Shown: positions 10,908 to 18,776 of the stretch, in pieces | Layout of the letters: each line of letters opens with the position of its first letter | Position numbering within the stretch: position 1 is the first letter of the stretch | Position numbers and translations under genes: made by a program | The notes under the pieces: model-generated | What the model was told of the DNA's origin: nothing | Databases searched by the model: none | What the model saw: only the letters and a program-made list of their open reading frames with translations | From: Luteitalea sp. | Lineage (GTDB): Bacteria > Acidobacteriota > Vicinamibacteria > Vicinamibacterales > Vicinamibacteraceae | Reading direction: 5' to 3' | DNA length: 58,570 nt | NCBI GenBank assembly: GCA_009377605.1 | Contig: WHTT01000016.1 | Location: 28,490-87,059 of the forward strand

Positions 10908-13766
10908 ATGGCAGGAACGTCTATGCCGGATTGGAGTAAGACAGTCAACCTGCCCCGTACGGAGTTCCCGATGCGGGCGAACCTGCAGCGCACAGAGCCG
11001 GCGGTGCTCGCCCGCTGGGACGAATCGCGCCTGTACGAGCAGATTCTCGCCGCGCGGCACGGCAAGCCGCGCTTCGTCCTGCACGACGGTCCGCCCTACG
11101 CCAACGGACGCATCCACCTTGGCCAGGCCCTCAACAAGATTCTCAAGGACTTCGTCGTCAAGTCGAAGACGATGGCAGGATTCGAAGCGCCGTACGTACC
11201 GGGCTGGGACTGCCACGGCCTGCCCATCGAGCTGAAGGTGGATCGCGAGCTCGGATCCAAGAAACGAGAGATGAGCGCGGCTGACTTCCGTCGCGAATGC
11301 CGGAAGTACGCCGAGAGCTACGTGAACCTGCAGCGTGAGGACTTTCGGCGGCTGGGCGTCCTCGGTGACTGGTCGAACCCGTACCTCACAATGAGCTACG
11401 GCTACCAGGCCGCCATCGTGCGTGCCCTGGGCAAATTCGTCGAGCTCGGGCAGGTCTACAAGGGCAAGAAGCCAGTCAATTGGTGCATTCACTGCCGCAC
11501 GGCACTGGCCGAAGCCGAGGTCGAGTACGAAGAGCACGCATCGCCATCCATTTACGTCGAGTTTCCGCTGGCCGACGCCTCTGCTCAGGAGCTCGCCGCG
11601 CGGGCCCCAGCGCTCAGGGGCCGCGACGTTGCAGCCCTGATCTGGACGACGACGCCTTGGACGATCCCGTCGAATCTCGCCCTGGCGTTCCACCCGGCGC
11701 TGACATATGGCGCGTACGAGCTCGACGACCGGGTCTTCATCATCGCGGAAGGGCTCGCAGAAGCCACCTTCGGCAAGCGCGGCCTCACGCCGGGCGAGCC
11801 GCTCGCGCGGTTGACCGGGGACGCGCTGGAGCACATCAAGTTTCGCCACCCGCTGTACGAGCGCGACTCGCCGGGTGTGCTCGGGGAATACGTGACGCTC
11901 GAACAGGGCACGGGCGTCGTCCACACGGCACCCGGCCACGGCGCAGACGACTTTCACACGGGCGTGAAGTACGGCCTCGAGATCTACGCGCCGGTCGGAC
12001 CAAGCGGCCACTTCCACGATGACGTCGGCCTCTTCGGCGGCGAGCGTGTCTTCGATGCCAATCCACACGTGGAGGCGGCGCTGGCCGAGCGAGGCCGACT
12101 GTGGTTCCGCGAGCCGTACCACCACCAATATCCCCACTGCTGGCGGTGCCACAATCCGGTCATCTTCTTGGCGACGCCGCAATGGTTCATTGCCATGGAC
12201 CACGACGGCTTCCGGCAGCGGGCGCTCGACGCCATCAAGGGGGCGACGTGGCTGCCGGCTTGGGGTGAGGAGCGGATCCACAACATGGTCGCGCATCGGC
12301 CAGATTGGTGTATCTCGCGCCAGCGTGTCTGGGGTGTGCCGATCCCCGCGGTCTATTGCAACGGCTGCCGCGACGCCGTGCTCACGAAGCCGCTCATCGA
12401 CCACGCGGCGGCCGTGTTCGAACAGCACGGCGCCGATGTCTGGTACGAGTGGCCGGTCGAGCAACTGGTGCCGGCGGGCTTCACCTGTCCAGCCTGCGGT
12501 GGAGCACAGTTCGAACCGGAGCGCGACATCCTCGACGTGTGGTTCGATTCGGGATCGAGCCACGAAGCGGTGCTCGACCGACGGCCAGAGCTCGGTTGGC
12601 CAGCCGACGTCTATCTGGAGGGAAACGACCAGTACCGCGGCTGGTTCCAGAGCTCATTGCTGGTGGGTCTCGGCACGCGCGGCCGGTCGCCGTACCATCA
12701 GGTCATCATGCACGGCTTCATCGTGGACGAAGATGGCCGCAAGATGTCGAAGTCGCGCGGCAACGACGTCACGCCCCAGCAAGTGATCGAGCAAAGCGGC
12801 GCGGAGATCCTCCGGCTCTGGGCCGCCATGGTCGATTACCGGGAGGAGCAGCGCTTCGGCAAGGAAATCCTCGCGCGCACGGTCGAGGCGTATCGGAAGC
12901 TGCGCAACACGCTGCGCTACCTCGTGGCGAACCTGTACGACTTCGACCCCTCCACAGACCGCGTGTCGCCGGAGCGCATGTTGGAAGTCGACCGCTACGC
13001 GCTGGCACAATACGCTGCGGCGAGCCTCGAGGTCTTGCGCGCGTACAATGCGTACGACTTCCAATCGATCTTCCACAAGGTGAACCAGCTCGTGACCGTC
13101 GATTTGAGCGCGTTCTACATCGACGTGTCGAAGGACCGTCTCTACACCCACGGTGCCAAGTGGGAATCACGGCGCTCCGCACAGACAGCGATGTACGTCA
13201 TGGCCGACGGCCTCGCGCGGCTGCTCGCGCCCCTGCTGCCGTTCACGATGGACGAAGTGTGGCGCTCCTTACCAGGCACCCGCGAACCGTCGGTACATGC
13301 GGCGCTGTTCCCGGACAATGTCGACGAGCTCCACGACCCAGCGCTCACCGTCGAGTGGCGCAGCCTGTTGGCGCTCCGGGATGCCATCAACGCGGCGCTG
13401 GAAGCCCAGCGGCAGAGCAAAGTCATTGGTAGCCCGCTCGAGGCACACGTACAGGTCGGTGCGTCGGATCAAGAGTTGGCGCTCCTGCAGCGCCACGAGG
13501 CCGATCTACCGATGCTGTTCCTCACCTCCAGCGTAACCATACGAGATACGCGCTCACCCTCGCGTGCAGGTACGACGAGCGTGGCGGTCGACGTGCAGCG
13601 CGCATCTGGGACCAAGTGCCCGCGGTGTTGGCGGTATGTCGAGTCGATCTCGGATGAACCGGCGTTCGAGGGGCTGTGTGATCGCTGCGTTCAGGCACTG
13701 TCCGATCCGGAGCGCGATCCCGTCGGTGTCGGTGCTCCGACGGCTCCGACTCGGAGCGCGTCCTAA
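10908..13766 (+). CDS. ileS: Isoleucyl-tRNA synthetase
   Basis: A 952-residue class I synthetase. The HIGH-type motif is [11 protein letters not shown] (about residues 67-77), the editing domain (CP1) spans about 200-400 with [17 protein letters not shown], and the KMSKS loop ([11 protein letters not shown]) starts at about residue 612. A C-terminal zinc knuckle has C904/C907 and C924/C927 (CPRCWRY, CDRCVQA), as in bacterial-type IleS. It charges tRNA-Ile in the cytoplasm. Two ATGs (10908 and 10923) are possible. lspA follows after 8 bp, the common ileS-lspA order. The knuckle and domain layout suggest no mupirocin-resistance type. Confidence 0.96.
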
Positions 13767-13774
13767 GTTTACGT

Positions 13775-14281
13775 ATGCCGACCTGGATGTTCTCACCACG
13801 ACGCCGCGAGCCTTGGGTCGCGGCGATCGTGCTCCTGGCCGACCAACTGACGAAGGGGCTCGTCCACGGGACGATTCACCTGCACGACAGCGTTCCGGTG
13901 ATTCCGGGCTTGCTCAACTTCACGCACGTCCTCAACGAGGGCGCAGCGTTCGGCCTGCTGAATGCCGCGCAGTTCCGCTTCAAGCCGGTGATCGTGGCCA
14001 CCATGGCGCTCATCGCGCTCGTGGCGATCATCGTCTATGCCGGCCGCTTCGCCACGGAGACGGCAAGCGCGCGCTACGGCTTGGCGCTGGTGCTGGCCGG
14101 CGCCGTCGGGAACCTGATCGATCGGGCCACCCGAGGCCACGTGTTGGACTTCGTCGACCTCTACTGGGAATCGTGGCACTTCTGGGCCTTCAACGTCGCC
14201 GACGCTGCCATCACCACAGGCGCCGCGCTCATCGTGGTCGACATGCTCTTTGCGAAACGCGATGTATCCACAGCTGTTTGA
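13775..14281 (+). CDS. lspA: Lipoprotein signal peptidase (signal peptidase II)
   Basis: A 168-residue inner-membrane aspartyl protease with four hydrophobic segments. The catalytic pair is D116 in GNLIDRATRGHVLDFVD and D143 in AFNVADAAI; LNEGAAFGLL is the conserved N-x-G-x-A-F motif. It cleaves the signal peptide of diacylglyceryl-modified prolipoproteins. It sits between ileS and lgt, the enzyme acting just before it, and overlaps lgt by 20 nt, so the two lipoprotein steps are translationally linked. Confidence 0.96.
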   Translation: MPTWMFSPRRREPWVAAIVLLADQLTKGLVHGTIHLHDSVPVIPGLLNFTHVLNEGAAFGLLNAAQFRFKPVIVATMALIALVAIIVYAGRFATETASARYGLALVLAGAVGNLIDRATRGHVLDFVDLYWESWHFWAFNVADAAITTGAALIVVDMLFAKRDVSTAV

Positions 14282-15104
14282 GATCCCACTGCCCGATTGG
14301 CTGCCGTGGCTCGGCGGCGAGCTGACCATCTACACGTACGGCCTGCTGCTAGCGGCGGCTTACCTTGCGGGGCTGCAGCTGGCGCTGGTCAGGGCGCGTC
14401 ATCGCGGCCTCGACGCCAACCGGGTGATGGACCTCGGGCTCTGGATCATCATCGCCGCGCTCGTCGGCGCGAAGCTGCTCCTCGTCATCACGGACTTCGA
14501 ATACTTCGTCGCCAACCCGCGCGACCTCGTCTCCATCGTCCGCTCCGGCGGCGTCTTCTACGGGGGCCTCATCCTCGCGGTGATCGTGGGGCTGTGGTAC
14601 ATGCGGCGGCATCAGCTCCCCACCTGGACGACATGCGATGTCATGGCACCGGGCATCGCACTGGGACACGTCGTCGGTCGCCTCGGGTGTTTCTTGGCCG
14701 GCTGTTGCTACGGCAAGCCGACGAGCGCTCCCTGGGGCGTCATGTTCACCGATCCGTTCGCGCACGACAACGTGGGCACGCCGCTCGGCGTGCATCTACA
14801 TCCCACGCAGCTCTACGAGGCAGGGGCAGAGCTGATCATCCTCGTCGTCCTGCTCGCGACCGAGCGGCGACGCCGGCCGTTTGCTGGTCGTACTTTCTGG
14901 CTCTACATGCTGCTCTACGGCGTCTCGCGGTTCATCATCGAGTTCTTCCGGGGCGATCCTCGAGGCATGGTCGCGGGTCTCTCGACGTCGCAGTTCATTT
15001 CCGTCATCCTGGTGCCCCTGTCGGTCGTCATGCTCGTGCGGCTCTCGCGCCGCGGCCCTGCCCCGCAGCCCTCCCGCCGGCGGACGCAGGCGAAAGCGGC
15101 GTAA
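14262..15104 (+). CDS. lgt: Prolipoprotein diacylglyceryl transferase
   Basis: A 280-residue protein with about seven membrane segments. It carries the Lgt signature region GHVVGRLGCFLAGCCYG (a Cys-rich variant of GRxGNF), YTYGLLLAAAY near the start, HPTQLYEAGAEL, and the essential arginine region FIIEFFRGDPRG. It transfers diacylglycerol from phosphatidylglycerol to the lipobox Cys. ATG 14262 (MYPQLFEIP) was chosen over 14250 because the family starts there; both overlap lspA. A hairpin follows the stop. Confidence 0.95.
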   Translation: MYPQLFEIPLPDWLPWLGGELTIYTYGLLLAAAYLAGLQLALVRARHRGLDANRVMDLGLWIIIAALVGAKLLLVITDFEYFVANPRDLVSIVRSGGVFYGGLILAVIVGLWYMRRHQLPTWTTCDVMAPGIALGHVVGRLGCFLAGCCYGKPTSAPWGVMFTDPFAHDNVGTPLGVHLHPTQLYEAGAELIILVVLLATERRRRPFAGRTFWLYMLLYGVSRFIIEFFRGDPRGMVAGLSTSQFISVILVPLSVVMLVRLSRRGPAPQPSRRRTQAKAA

Positions 15105-15213
15105 ACAGGAACCGGGAAACGGGGACAGCCCCCGTTTTCGGTCTTGATGTTCGTAGAAACGAGCCGCGTCATCACCCGAAAACGGGGGCTGTCCCCGTTT
15201 CCTGTTCCTTTTT
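15103..15213 (+). terminator. Long inverted repeat followed by T-run after lgt
   Basis: The left arm (15103-15142) and right arm (15173-15206) share AACGGGGACAGCCCCCGTTT and flanking bases; the left arm has five extra bases (CCGGG). Pairing gives a stem of about 30 bp with a 30-nt loop, then CCTTTTT (15207-15213). It looks like an interspersed repeat recruited as the terminator of ileS-lspA-lgt. It ends 7 bp before rluD. Confidence 0.7.
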
Positions 15214-15219
15214 CTCCCC

Positions 15220-16185
15220 ATGGCCAGTGAAATCATCACAGTCGAGGTTCCGCCGGAGCAGGCGGACGAGCGGTTGGACCGAACCCTGGCCGCGGTGGTG
15301 CCTGGCCGATCTCGCTCGCAGCTTCAGCGACTGGTGCGCGACGGCTGTGTCCGTGTGGACGATGTGGTCACCGCGCGGGTGAGCGAGCGGGTGCGTGCCG
15401 GCAGCCGCATCGAGGTGACCGTGCCAGCCGTGGCGCCGGCCCAGGCGGTGCCGGAGGAGCTGCCTCTCGACATCCTCTACCAGGATGAGGACCTGATCGT
15501 CGTCGACAAGCCGCCGGGCATGGTGGTCCACCCCGCCGCTGGCCATGCGACGGGAACACTCGTCAACGCGTTACTGCACGCCGTCAGCGATCTGAGCGGC
15601 GTCGGAGGCGAGCTTCGTCCTGGTATCGTCCATCGCCTGGACAAGGGAACGTCGGGAGTGATGGTCGTGGCGAAGAACGACCGCACGCACATGGCTCTGG
15701 CGCGGCAGTTTCACGATCGAGAAGTCGAGAAGGAATACGTGACGCTCGTCTGGGGCGTCGTCCAGGCAGGCCGCCGGATCGATGCGCCAATCGGCCGCCA
15801 TGCCACCAATCGTCAGAAGATGTCGACGCGCGCCCGGCGCGCCCGAGCCGCTGTCACGCGTGTGGTGGCTGCCTCGCCGCTCGCGGGCGTGACGCTGCTG
15901 CACGTGGCAATTGCGACCGGACGGACACATCAGGTTCGAGTACACTTGTCGGCCATTGGCCACCCCGTTGTGGGGGATGCCACTTACGGCGGTATTCGGC
16001 GTCGATGGCCCGCGCATCTGCGTTCGTTGAGCGCCCTGGAGCGCCCCTTCCTACACGCCGAGCGGCTGGTCATCACGCATCCAGCCGATGAGCGCCGCAT
16101 GGAGTTCAGAGCGCCGCTGGCCAGGGATCTAGACCAAGTGCTCGACGGCTTGCGTGCAGATCTGCAGCGCTTCGGTGAGGTGTGA
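15220..16185 (+). CDS. rluD: 23S rRNA pseudouridine synthase, RluD family
   Basis: A 321-residue protein with an N-terminal S4 RNA-binding domain (residues about 14-75, RLDRTLAAVVPGRSRSQLQR) and an RluA/RluD catalytic domain. The catalytic Asp is D141 in GIVHRLDKGTSGVMVVAK. YQDEDLIVVDKPPGMVVHP and GRTHQVRVHLSAIGHPVVGD are further family motifs. RluD makes the pseudouridines of 23S helix 69. RluC-type specificity cannot be excluded from sequence. Confidence 0.92.
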   Translation: MASEIITVEVPPEQADERLDRTLAAVVPGRSRSQLQRLVRDGCVRVDDVVTARVSERVRAGSRIEVTVPAVAPAQAVPEELPLDILYQDEDLIVVDKPPGMVVHPAAGHATGTLVNALLHAVSDLSGVGGELRPGIVHRLDKGTSGVMVVAKNDRTHMALARQFHDREVEKEYVTLVWGVVQAGRRIDAPIGRHATNRQKMSTRARRARAAVTRVVAASPLAGVTLLHVAIATGRTHQVRVHLSAIGHPVVGDATYGGIRRRWPAHLRSLSALERPFLHAERLVITHPADERRMEFRAPLARDLDQVLDGLRADLQRFGEV

Positions 16186-16206
16186 CAAAAGGTGAAAGGA
16201 GCTTCA

Positions 16207-17532
16207 ATGCCCGTGACGAGCTACGCCAGAGCGCAACGAGCTGGGGTTGCGCTCGCTCCGATGTTGCTCATCGGCTCGATGAGCCTGGCGCAGGAGGCGC
16301 CGCAGGCGTTCTTGAACGCCCGCATCATCCCCATTTCGGGCCCCGTCATCGAGCGCGGCGTGCTCGTCGTTCAAGACGCGAAGATCCTGGCCGTGGGCCC
16401 GGCCTCCTCTGTGCAGGTGCCGAGTGGCGCGAAGCGCCACGACCTCGACGGCAAGACGATCATGCCGGGTCTGGTCGACACGCATAGTCACATCGGGGGC
16501 GGCTCTGGCGGCGATCGCTCCGCGCCAATTCAGCCGGACGTGCGCATCCTGGACGCGATCGACGTGAGGAACACGGGAATTCGGCGCGCACAAGCTGGCG
16601 GGATCACGACGGTCAACGTGATGCCAGGCTCCGGGCATCTGCTGAGCGGCCAGACCGTGTACCTCAAGCTGCGGCGCGGGCGCACGATCGACGATCTGCT
16701 GATTCGCGACGGGGAGGAACGCATTGCCGGCGGTCTGAAGATGGCCAACGGCACGAACTCCATTGACGAGCCGCCTTTTCCGGGAACGCGAGCGAAATCA
16801 GTAGCTCTCGCGCGCAAAGCGTTCGTCGAGGCGATCGATTACCGCGACAAGCTGAAGCGCGCTGGAGACGACCCGGAGAAGCGTCCCGCACGCGACCTCG
16901 GCCTCGAGACGCTCCTCGAGGTGCTCGACGGCCGGCGGGTCGTCCACTTCCACACGCATCGCCACGACGACATCCTCACCGTCATACGGCTGTCCAAGGA
17001 ATTTGGATTCAGACCGGTTCTGCAGCACGTTTCCGAAGGGTGGAAAGTGGCCGACGAGATCGCCAAGGCAGGCCTTGCGTGCTCGGTGATCGTGCTCGAT
17101 TCCCCCGGCGGAAAGATCGAAGCCAAGGATGTATCGCTGACCACCGGTGCGGTGCTGGACAAGGCGGGCGTGCTCGTCGGCTTTCATACCGATGACTACA
17201 TCACCGATTCACGCCTCTTCCTTCGGTCTGCGGCCCTTGCCGTCCGCGCCGGCATGGCGCGCGACAGCGCTCTCGCAGCGCTCACAACGGCTGGTGCGCA
17301 GATGCTTGGCCTCGAGCCGCGGATCGGATCGCTCGAGGCAGGCAAGGATGCAGACTTCATCGTGCTCTCAGGCGATCCGCTGAGCGTCTACACACACGTC
17401 GAGCAGACGTGGATCGAGGGGCAAAAGGTCTTCGATCGCTCAAATGCCGAGGACCGTCTCTACGCCGTCGGCGGCTACGGCGCCAGCCGCGACAACGATG
17501 TTCACGTCGAGCTGGGCGAGGAGGCACGGTAA
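16207..17532 (+). CDS. Secreted amidohydrolase with intact metal site
   Basis: A 441-residue protein with a signal peptide (about residues 1-28, ALAPMLLIGSMSLAQ) and an amidohydrolase TIM barrel of the imidazolonepropionase-like type. Metal ligands are visible: H93 and H95 (VDTHSH), a HFHTHRHDD cluster with H247/H249/H251, H274 (LQHVSEG) and D329 (GFHTDD). Such periplasmic enzymes hydrolyse C-N bonds in unknown amides or cyclic dipeptides. ATG 16207 has AAAGGAG 5 nt upstream, which decides the start over the GTG at 16192. The stop overlaps the start of a paralogue (TAATG). Confidence 0.86.
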   Translation: MPVTSYARAQRAGVALAPMLLIGSMSLAQEAPQAFLNARIIPISGPVIERGVLVVQDAKILAVGPASSVQVPSGAKRHDLDGKTIMPGLVDTHSHIGGGSGGDRSAPIQPDVRILDAIDVRNTGIRRAQAGGITTVNVMPGSGHLLSGQTVYLKLRRGRTIDDLLIRDGEERIAGGLKMANGTNSIDEPPFPGTRAKSVALARKAFVEAIDYRDKLKRAGDDPEKRPARDLGLETLLEVLDGRRVVHFHTHRHDDILTVIRLSKEFGFRPVLQHVSEGWKVADEIAKAGLACSVIVLDSPGGKIEAKDVSLTTGAVLDKAGVLVGFHTDDYITDSRLFLRSAALAVRAGMARDSALAALTTAGAQMLGLEPRIGSLEAGKDADFIVLSGDPLSVYTHVEQTWIEGQKVFDRSNAEDRLYAVGGYGASRDNDVHVELGEEAR

Positions 17533-18776
17533 TGGGAGTCGGGAATCACGATTCAGGGAGGGGGACAAGGCGGGGAATCTCGGCCTTGTTGGCAGTGATG
17601 GGAGTGCTCTTTGCGAGCACTGCCCACGCGCAGGTCGCCGTACGGGCAAAGACTGTCCACACGATGGCCGGCGCGGCGATCGAGAACGGCGTCGTGCTCG
17701 TGCGCGACGGCAAGATCGAGCGTGTCGGAGCGGCCTCAGGAATCTCCGTGCCGTCCGATTATCGTGTGCTCGAAGCGGAGGTGGTCACGCCGGGCCTCAT
17801 CGATGCGCACTCGGTGGTGGGCTTGGCCGGGTATCTGAATCAACCGCAAGACTCCGACCAACTCGAGACTTCCGCGCCCATCCAACCGGAGCTGCGGGCC
17901 ATTGACGCGTTCAATGCTCGGGAGCGCCTCGTCGAGTGGCTGCGCGGCTTGGGTGTGACAACCATCCATACGGGCCACGCACCGGGAGCGCTCGTCTCCG
18001 GTCAGACGATGATCGTCAAGACGACCGGCGCGGACACAGACGAGTCAGTGGTCGTCCCGACGGCGATGATTGCGGCCGCCCTAGGAAGCGCGGCCCTCGC
18101 CGAGGACGACAAGTCGCCAGGCACACGCGCAAAGGCTGTGGCGCTGCTGCGCGCGGAGCTCATCAAGGCGCAGGAGTACCTGGCGAAACGGAAAGATGCG
18201 GATGAACCACCAGAGCGCGACCTGACGCTCGAAGTGCTGGGGCAGGTGCTGCAAAGAGAGCGTCCATTGCTGGTGACAGCGCAGCGGGCAACCGACATCA
18301 CCGCCGCGCTGCGCATCGCGGAGGAGTTCGACATCCGCCTGGTGCTCGACGGCGCAGCTGAAGCCTACCTCGTCACCGACGCCATCAAGGCTGCGGGCGT
18401 ACCGGTGATCCTGCATCCCACCATGGCGCGTGCCAGTGGAGACCTCGAGAATCTCAGCATGGAGACAGCGGCCACGCTGCGAAAGGCGAGCATCCCGCTG
18501 GCCCTTCAGGCCGGTTACGAGGGCTACGTGCCCAAGACGCGCGTCGTGCTCTTCGAGGCCGCTGTCGCGTCGGCCAATGGTCTCACACGCGAGGAATCGC
18601 TCGCAGCCGTTACCATCGACGCAGCGCGCATCCTCGGGATAGACAAGCGGCTCGGCTCGCTGGAAGCTGGCAAGGACGCGGATCTGGTGCTCTTCGACGG
18701 AGATCCGCTCGAGTACACGTCGCACGTGGTGGGCGTGCTCATCGACGGACAGGTGGTGAGCTCGGAGCCGCAATAG
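17532..18776 (+). CDS. Amidohydrolase paralogue that has lost all metal ligands
   Basis: A 414-residue secreted protein (signal peptide ISALLAVMGVLFASTAHAQ). It aligns end to end with its upstream neighbour, including the shared tail LGSLEAGKDAD. At every ligand position the residue is changed: H-x-H becomes H93-S-V95, HFHTHRH becomes VTAQRAT, LQHVSEG becomes LDGAAEA, and the FHTDD aspartate becomes G in LQAGYEG. It is therefore predicted to be catalytically dead. The TAATG overlap implies coordinated synthesis with the active enzyme, so a heteromeric partner or regulatory subunit is a reasonable inference. Confidence 0.84.
   Translation: MGVGNHDSGRGTRRGISALLAVMGVLFASTAHAQVAVRAKTVHTMAGAAIENGVVLVRDGKIERVGAASGISVPSDYRVLEAEVVTPGLIDAHSVVGLAGYLNQPQDSDQLETSAPIQPELRAIDAFNARERLVEWLRGLGVTTIHTGHAPGALVSGQTMIVKTTGADTDESVVVPTAMIAAALGSAALAEDDKSPGTRAKAVALLRAELIKAQEYLAKRKDADEPPERDLTLEVLGQVLQRERPLLVTAQRATDITAALRIAEEFDIRLVLDGAAEAYLVTDAIKAAGVPVILHPTMARASGDLENLSMETAATLRKASIPLALQAGYEGYVPKTRVVLFEAAVASANGLTREESLAAVTIDAARILGIDKRLGSLEAGKDADLVLFDGDPLEYTSHVVGVLIDGQVVSSEPQ

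Follow-up and report, generated by a model that had tools for sequence, protein, structure and literature searches.

A predicted exported amidohydrolase and its catalytically dead neighbouring paralogue probably form an obligate pair that recurs across bacterial phyla

Why would a bacterium keep, directly behind a predicted-secreted hydrolase, a second copy of it from which the catalytic metal ligands have gone? The question is raised by two genes arranged head to tail, here called A and B, in a 58,570-nucleotide stretch of a Luteitalea genome (assembly GCA_009377605.1, contig WHTT01000016.1; hereafter the window), and it bears on a practical matter, namely which of the environmental-bacterial genes that carry the amidohydrolase label truly encode enzymes, genes of both types being annotated simply as amidohydrolases. 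An earlier note on this DNA had described the two as coupled paralogues joined by a TAATG overlap, each with a signal peptide, and had proposed that the dead copy serves as a heterodimer partner or regulatory subunit. The positions of both genes and of the overlap (17530-17534) are borne out by the sequence (Table 1), and the overlap itself points to translational coupling of A and B. Signal-peptide-like N-termini are seen on both proteins as judged by hydrophobicity, and by the same measure, which registers hydrophobicity only, a similar stretch is present in 67 of 71 A orthologues and 70 of 80 B orthologues. Upstream of the pair (window 10908-16185) lie genes that, named by eye from their open reading frames, resemble those for IleRS, LspA, Lgt and RluD; no functional link between these genes and the pair was found.

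Table 1. Features of the A-B gene pair, in window positions
Feature	Position	Strand	Basis or remark
Ribosome-binding site of gene A, AAAGGAG	16195..16201	+	Read from sequence; spacing to ATG 5 nt
Gene A, 441 aa, catalytic-looking predicted-secreted amidohydrolase	16207..17532	+	Stop TAA 17530-17532; Pfam, PDB 3ooq
A N-terminus, signal-peptide-like, aa 1-28 (...LLIGSMSLA/QE)	16207..16290	+	12-residue hydrophobicity 2.08
A: H93-S-H95, beta-strand 1 metal ligands	16483..16491	+	117/117
A: K178 in LKMANG, candidate carboxylated lysine	16738..16740	+	117/117
A: H249-T-H251	16951..16959	+	117/117
A: H274	17026..17028	+	117/117
A: D329, beta-strand 8 Asp	17191..17193	+	117/117
Ribosome-binding site of gene B, GAGGAGG, within the 3' end of gene A	17518..17524	+	7 nt ahead of B ATG
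Stop-start overlap TAATG, A and B sharing one base	17530..17534	+	Sequence
Gene B, 414 aa, predicted-secreted pseudo-amidohydrolase, dead paralogue	17532..18776	+	Pfam, PDB 3ooq, model
B N-terminus, signal-peptide-like, aa 1-33 (...ASTAHA/QV)	17532..17630	+	Hydrophobicity 2.62
B: H93-S-V95, second ligand His gone	17808..17816	+	His at 95 in 0/128 B
B: A181 replacing ligand Lys	18072..18074	+	Ala 110/128; no Lys among residues listed
B: T249-A-Q251 replacing HxH	18276..18284	+	His at 249 in 0/128 B
B: G274 replacing His	18351..18353	+	G 99, S 29 of 128
B: E330-G-Y-V-P-K335 at strand-8 Asp region	18519..18536	+	Glu 128/128

Both genes score above the Pfam cut-offs for PF07969 (29.7 bits) and PF01979 (25 bits), with 67.4 and 64.8 bits for A and 51.6 and 51.4 bits for B, respectively. 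The top PDB match by sequence is in each case 3ooq from Thermotoga maritima (E 2.7e-55 for A, 9.6e-50 for B), the runners-up being far weaker (2.9e-12 and 9.3e-11), and 3ooq is also the closest solved structure by fold to a predicted model of B (TM 0.84/0.91), which upholds the earlier view that the scaffold of B has been kept. A and B fit a 3ooq-like subfamily, well apart from other COG1228 proteins, and the nearest characterised relatives of the pair are COG1228-type peptidases and imidazolonepropionases. The COG1228-type prolidases and carboxypeptidases and imidazolonepropionase (3mtw Cc2672, 2p9b, 2qs8, HutI) share the superfamily with A and B, with weaker matches, and we know of no dead paralogous partner for any of them. 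Three more specific assignments were rejected on curated cut-offs, namely Xaa-Pro dipeptidase (NF051886; A 81.9 and B 56.1 bits against 500), imidazolonepropionase HutI (TIGR01224; A 54.2 and B 53.3 bits against 298) and, for B, the dihydroorotase family (31.1 bits against 279). Judged by profile and metal ligands together, A can be placed in the amidohydrolase superfamily; B is a homologue by profile and fold that, without the catalytic ligands, would fall outside the enzyme class.

The ligands themselves separate the two genes sharply. Ligand positions were aligned on 3ooq and counted in non-redundant sets from which near-copies had been removed (117 A, 128 B). All seven (H93, H95, K178, H249, H251, H274 and D329) are present in 117 of 117 A orthologues, in agreement with the six positions proposed in the earlier note, which had overlooked K178, a residue invariant in A, lost in B and occupied by Lys also in 3ooq and in all five fused A halves described below. 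Window B reads H93, V95, A181, T249, Q251, G274 and E330 at the same positions, so that six of seven are changed, and at five of them (H95, K178, H249, H274 and D329 in A numbering) the ligand is absent from all 128 B orthologues. The claim that every ligand of B is substituted is thus correct for H95, H249, H274 and D329 and wrong for H93, which persists in window B and in 98 of the 128 orthologues (Arg in the other 30); similarly, D329 had rightly been called lost, but its replacement is the invariant E330 rather than the Gly that had been assigned. The position of K178 holds A, V, S, T, M or L in B, and that of H251 is variable, with Q in the window and H in about half of the orthologues. 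A search for B orthologues with restored ligands found none in 128, and a single pattern running through 117 A against 128 B excludes chance.

Could B nevertheless be an enzyme that works through another site, for example a metal-free one or one built on new metal ligands? Strong purifying selection on B would fit such a role, as would the Glu and Lys held invariant at the strand-8 position, the Glu lying in a signature, QSGYExYVPKT, whose ExYVPK core is retained in five of five fused B halves. Against it stand the six altered positions in window B and the five ligands lost throughout, and a search by conservation for an alternative His/Asp/Glu ligand set shared by the B orthologues and the fused B halves found none; we regard this reading as very unlikely.

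Besides, B is not a gene in decay. Among closely related pairs, dN/dS lies mostly between 0.03 and 0.12 for B and between 0.01 and 0.15 for A. Purifying selection preserves B at the protein level, and pseudogene decay is ruled out by these values together with the natural fusions. A subtler proposal would make B a degenerate paralogue kept for operon reasons, such as the translation of A, with no part to play as a protein partner; since the genes overlap, loss of B could indeed disturb the mRNA. B lies downstream of A, however, so that A needs no B for its translation, and dN/dS far below 1, the retention of B in fusions and dead lineages whose age seems close to that of the family split all count against a purely operonic role, which we hold to be highly improbable.

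The linkage of the two genes extends well beyond the window. Scanning species genomes with the B alignment yielded at least 447 relatives. The best 80 constitute the named loci; their records carry the names Acidobacteria, Planctomycetota, Verrucomicrobia, Calditrichaceae, Ignavibacteriales/Chlorobi, Rhodothermales and Alpha- and Gammaproteobacteria. In 77 of these best 80, A lies immediately upstream of B; two of the remaining three are cut by contig ends, and one, L200, is the only locus with A and B on one contig yet separated. There (contig G403:C131) the genes stand about 5 kb apart, with open reading frames between them, one of which looks by eye like a PIN-domain gene. Within the window's phylum, an A orthologue occurs in 31 of 199 genomes and B in the identical 31, and in Planctomycetota each of the 43 genomes (of 246) that carry A also carries B, 36 with the genes adjacent, two with B at a contig end and five with both fused in one open reading frame (L193-L197), the first half (A) being live and the second (B) dead. 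A stop-start overlap (ATGA, TAATG or TGATG) joins 56-57 of the 77 named pairs and, in a second set that has a few genomes in common with the first, 45 of 51 unfused pairs. The tandem and its substitutions, which the earlier note had suggested surveying across genomes, therefore recur across phyla with no reversion. Apart from A and B themselves, gene families near the pair recur in 10 of 78 loci at most, which argues that the linkage is specific to A and B and not the by-product of a long conserved operon; a function for the wider neighbourhood was sought across the same 78 loci and not found. Given that the live-plus-dead pair recurs across phyla, in some cases as a fusion, B is very probably a subunit that its partner needs and not a gene on its way to loss.

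Linkage and co-occurrence alone do not prove contact, and both co-occurrence and coupling would also be expected if A and B, each exported, served one pathway without ever touching, a point that weighs against a complex. That account has difficulty with the A-B fusions in one reading frame, with the further fusions in the wider family, among them a 1419-aa protein of dead-live-dead type, and with the pTM of 0.88 obtained when the pair was modelled; we give it hardly any weight.

AlphaFold2 models bear on this point. Window B modelled alone has a mean pLDDT of 83 and a pTM of 0.84. For the pair, the prediction of a heterocomplex that had been proposed was made on orthologues from one locus (L014; 66% identical to window A and 66% to window B), whose genes stand in the same frame and were joined into one chain by reading through the TAA. 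When many separate A and B sequences were aligned to a two-domain target they stacked on one half, and that alignment was rejected in favour of a fused and read-through set comprising the target, 6 read-through pairs and 13 natural fusions (20 paired rows) plus 14 single sequences. The single chain reached a pTM of 0.88 and a mean pLDDT of 89, with disorder only in the linker (397-443). Two halves floating independently would score a pTM near 0.5, and the value obtained thus predicts a defined, confidently modelled A-B arrangement. Three B loops that are weak alone (101-110, 301-310 and 331-340; pLDDT 50, 47 and 55) score about 79, 82 and 85 in the pair model, although target sequences and alignments differ between the two models, and the EGYVPK region likewise passes from low confidence to order. 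The models suggest that these weak loops of B contact A. Taken with the recurrent tandem and the natural fusions, the pair model lends support to the heterodimer or regulatory-subunit idea.

The regulatory version of that idea deserves separate weighing. B might be a ligand-binding regulator in which the former active site binds a small molecule and switches A on or off; barrel folds are good binding scaffolds, and B retains a near-invariant set of polar residues (Q118, H149, H295, R300, E330 and K335) despite the lost metal site. H149 and H295 are, however, absent from the fused B halves, which share with B chiefly ExYVPK, E342 and E394 besides scaffold residues. The poor modelling of the 330-340 loop without A means that these shared residues could equally belong to an interface. 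Moreover, the substituting residues differ among the dead clades of the wider family. We consider a regulator of this kind unlikely, though less so than the other alternatives.

We think it probable that A and B instead form an obligate heteromeric secreted amidohydrolase complex, a reading that draws on the ligand losses, their fixation across phyla, linkage, co-occurrence, fusions, purifying selection and the predicted arrangement. The two proteins would be subunits of one exported, metal-dependent amidohydrolase whose sole working active site is presumably carried by A, and B, a non-catalytic, dead barrel with the fold of A, would bind A in the cell. Coupled translation may fix the A:B ratio at 1:1. 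In such a complex A would hydrolyse the substrate, and B would support folding or assembly or shape the active site of A, being obligatory for the fold, assembly or work of A as a structural or activating subunit, perhaps by means of loops that line the mouth of its defunct pocket, EGYVPK among them. A expressed alone would then probably fail or mislead, and, if the pair is obligate, the function of a common exported enzyme family must be assigned on A and B together.

The pair is one of several arrangements of live and dead barrels. The window's own genome holds, on contig C18 (36338-40373, minus strand; L011), a second cluster of three genes in the order dead-live-dead, 27-38% identical to A or B. 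Among 20 further multi-copy loci, wherever the whole locus was readable each live domain is accompanied by one or two dead ones, and several of these are fused proteins of 835-1005 aa; one locus (L121) contains three live/dead sets. Nearly all of 14 genomes chosen for few or weak matches have a trio with a single live and two dead domains. In one case (L232, on the minus strand) a single 1419-aa open reading frame encodes the amidohydrolase domains in the series dead-live-dead, and at L245 (G025, contig C23) a dead trio-type gene occurs with no live gene in the fetched stretch, a live/dead pair being found on another contig of the same genome. Such pairs, fusions and trios form a natural progression in which to study how an inactive enzyme copy becomes indispensable.

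In an unrooted tree computed with the ligand columns masked, the live/dead split needs 2 changes, against 27.8 with shuffled labels. 3ooq, which has all the metal ligands as A does, sits with the live proteins. The sister groups on the live side (A with fused A; trio live) recur on the dead side (B with fused B; two trio-dead clades), and the mirror-tree correlation of A with B is 0.69, a value that includes shared species history. The simplest reading of this unrooted tree is that live and dead forms arose in an ancient duplication and then diversified jointly, in which case the dead lineages would date from about the time of the family split. More tentatively, and with rather more doubt than conviction, the pair may represent a large and so far unrecognised group of exported amidohydrolases, spanning pair, fused pair, trio and fused trio, in which one live barrel is accompanied by one or two dead barrels derived from an ancient duplication and a dead barrel completes or gates the live active site in trans through its ExYVPK loop.

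The functional type, an enzyme with a dead partner, is already known. Pseudomonas aspartate transcarbamoylase (ATCase) requires pseudo-dihydroorotase, a dead amidohydrolase-fold protein, its isolated catalytic chain being inactive and the complex much more stable (PMC7053772). Like B, this protein and the pseudo-DHO domain of fungal CAD-like proteins have a dead amidohydrolase fold, but their partner is a transcarbamoylase, whereas A is a live paralogue of B, and, unlike A and B, which are predicted to be exported, the system is not an exported pair. An assignment of B to it was rejected on the dihydroorotase score given above and because no neighbour other than A recurs. In M16B heterodimers (mitochondrial processing peptidase, SPH2681/SPH2682 and TTHA1264/TTHA1265), a metal-binding subunit is joined by a homologous subunit that binds no metal, and a Thermus M16B protein that forms a homodimer in the crystal is, in solution, an inactive monomer unless it is paired with the protein encoded by the adjacent gene (PMC12731061). 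These heterodimers share the architecture of one metal-binding and one non-metal subunit proposed for A and B, yet they have an unrelated fold and family and are peptidases that enclose the substrate between their halves. Neither the ATCase nor the M16B case joins a live and a dead member of the amidohydrolase superfamily. The structural-genomics entry 3ooq, an amidohydrolase, in turn keeps all ligands like A, but its deposited structure contains ten copies of a single chain and no dead partner. A literature search for work on 3ooq, amidohydrolase pseudoenzymes or amidohydrolase heterodimers found nothing relevant among open-licence papers, which is weak evidence.

Two minor observations concern variation among the dead members. 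The B orthologues of one genus (L034-L040) align in two pieces around a short unaligned stretch at about residues 220-226, which suggests an insertion in B. Five dead members (L134, L135, L138, L139 and L140) still have part of the four-His ligand set (HHRHG, HSRHG, NHSHN, YRHHA and RHRHD, respectively) and perhaps represent intermediate stages of ligand loss.
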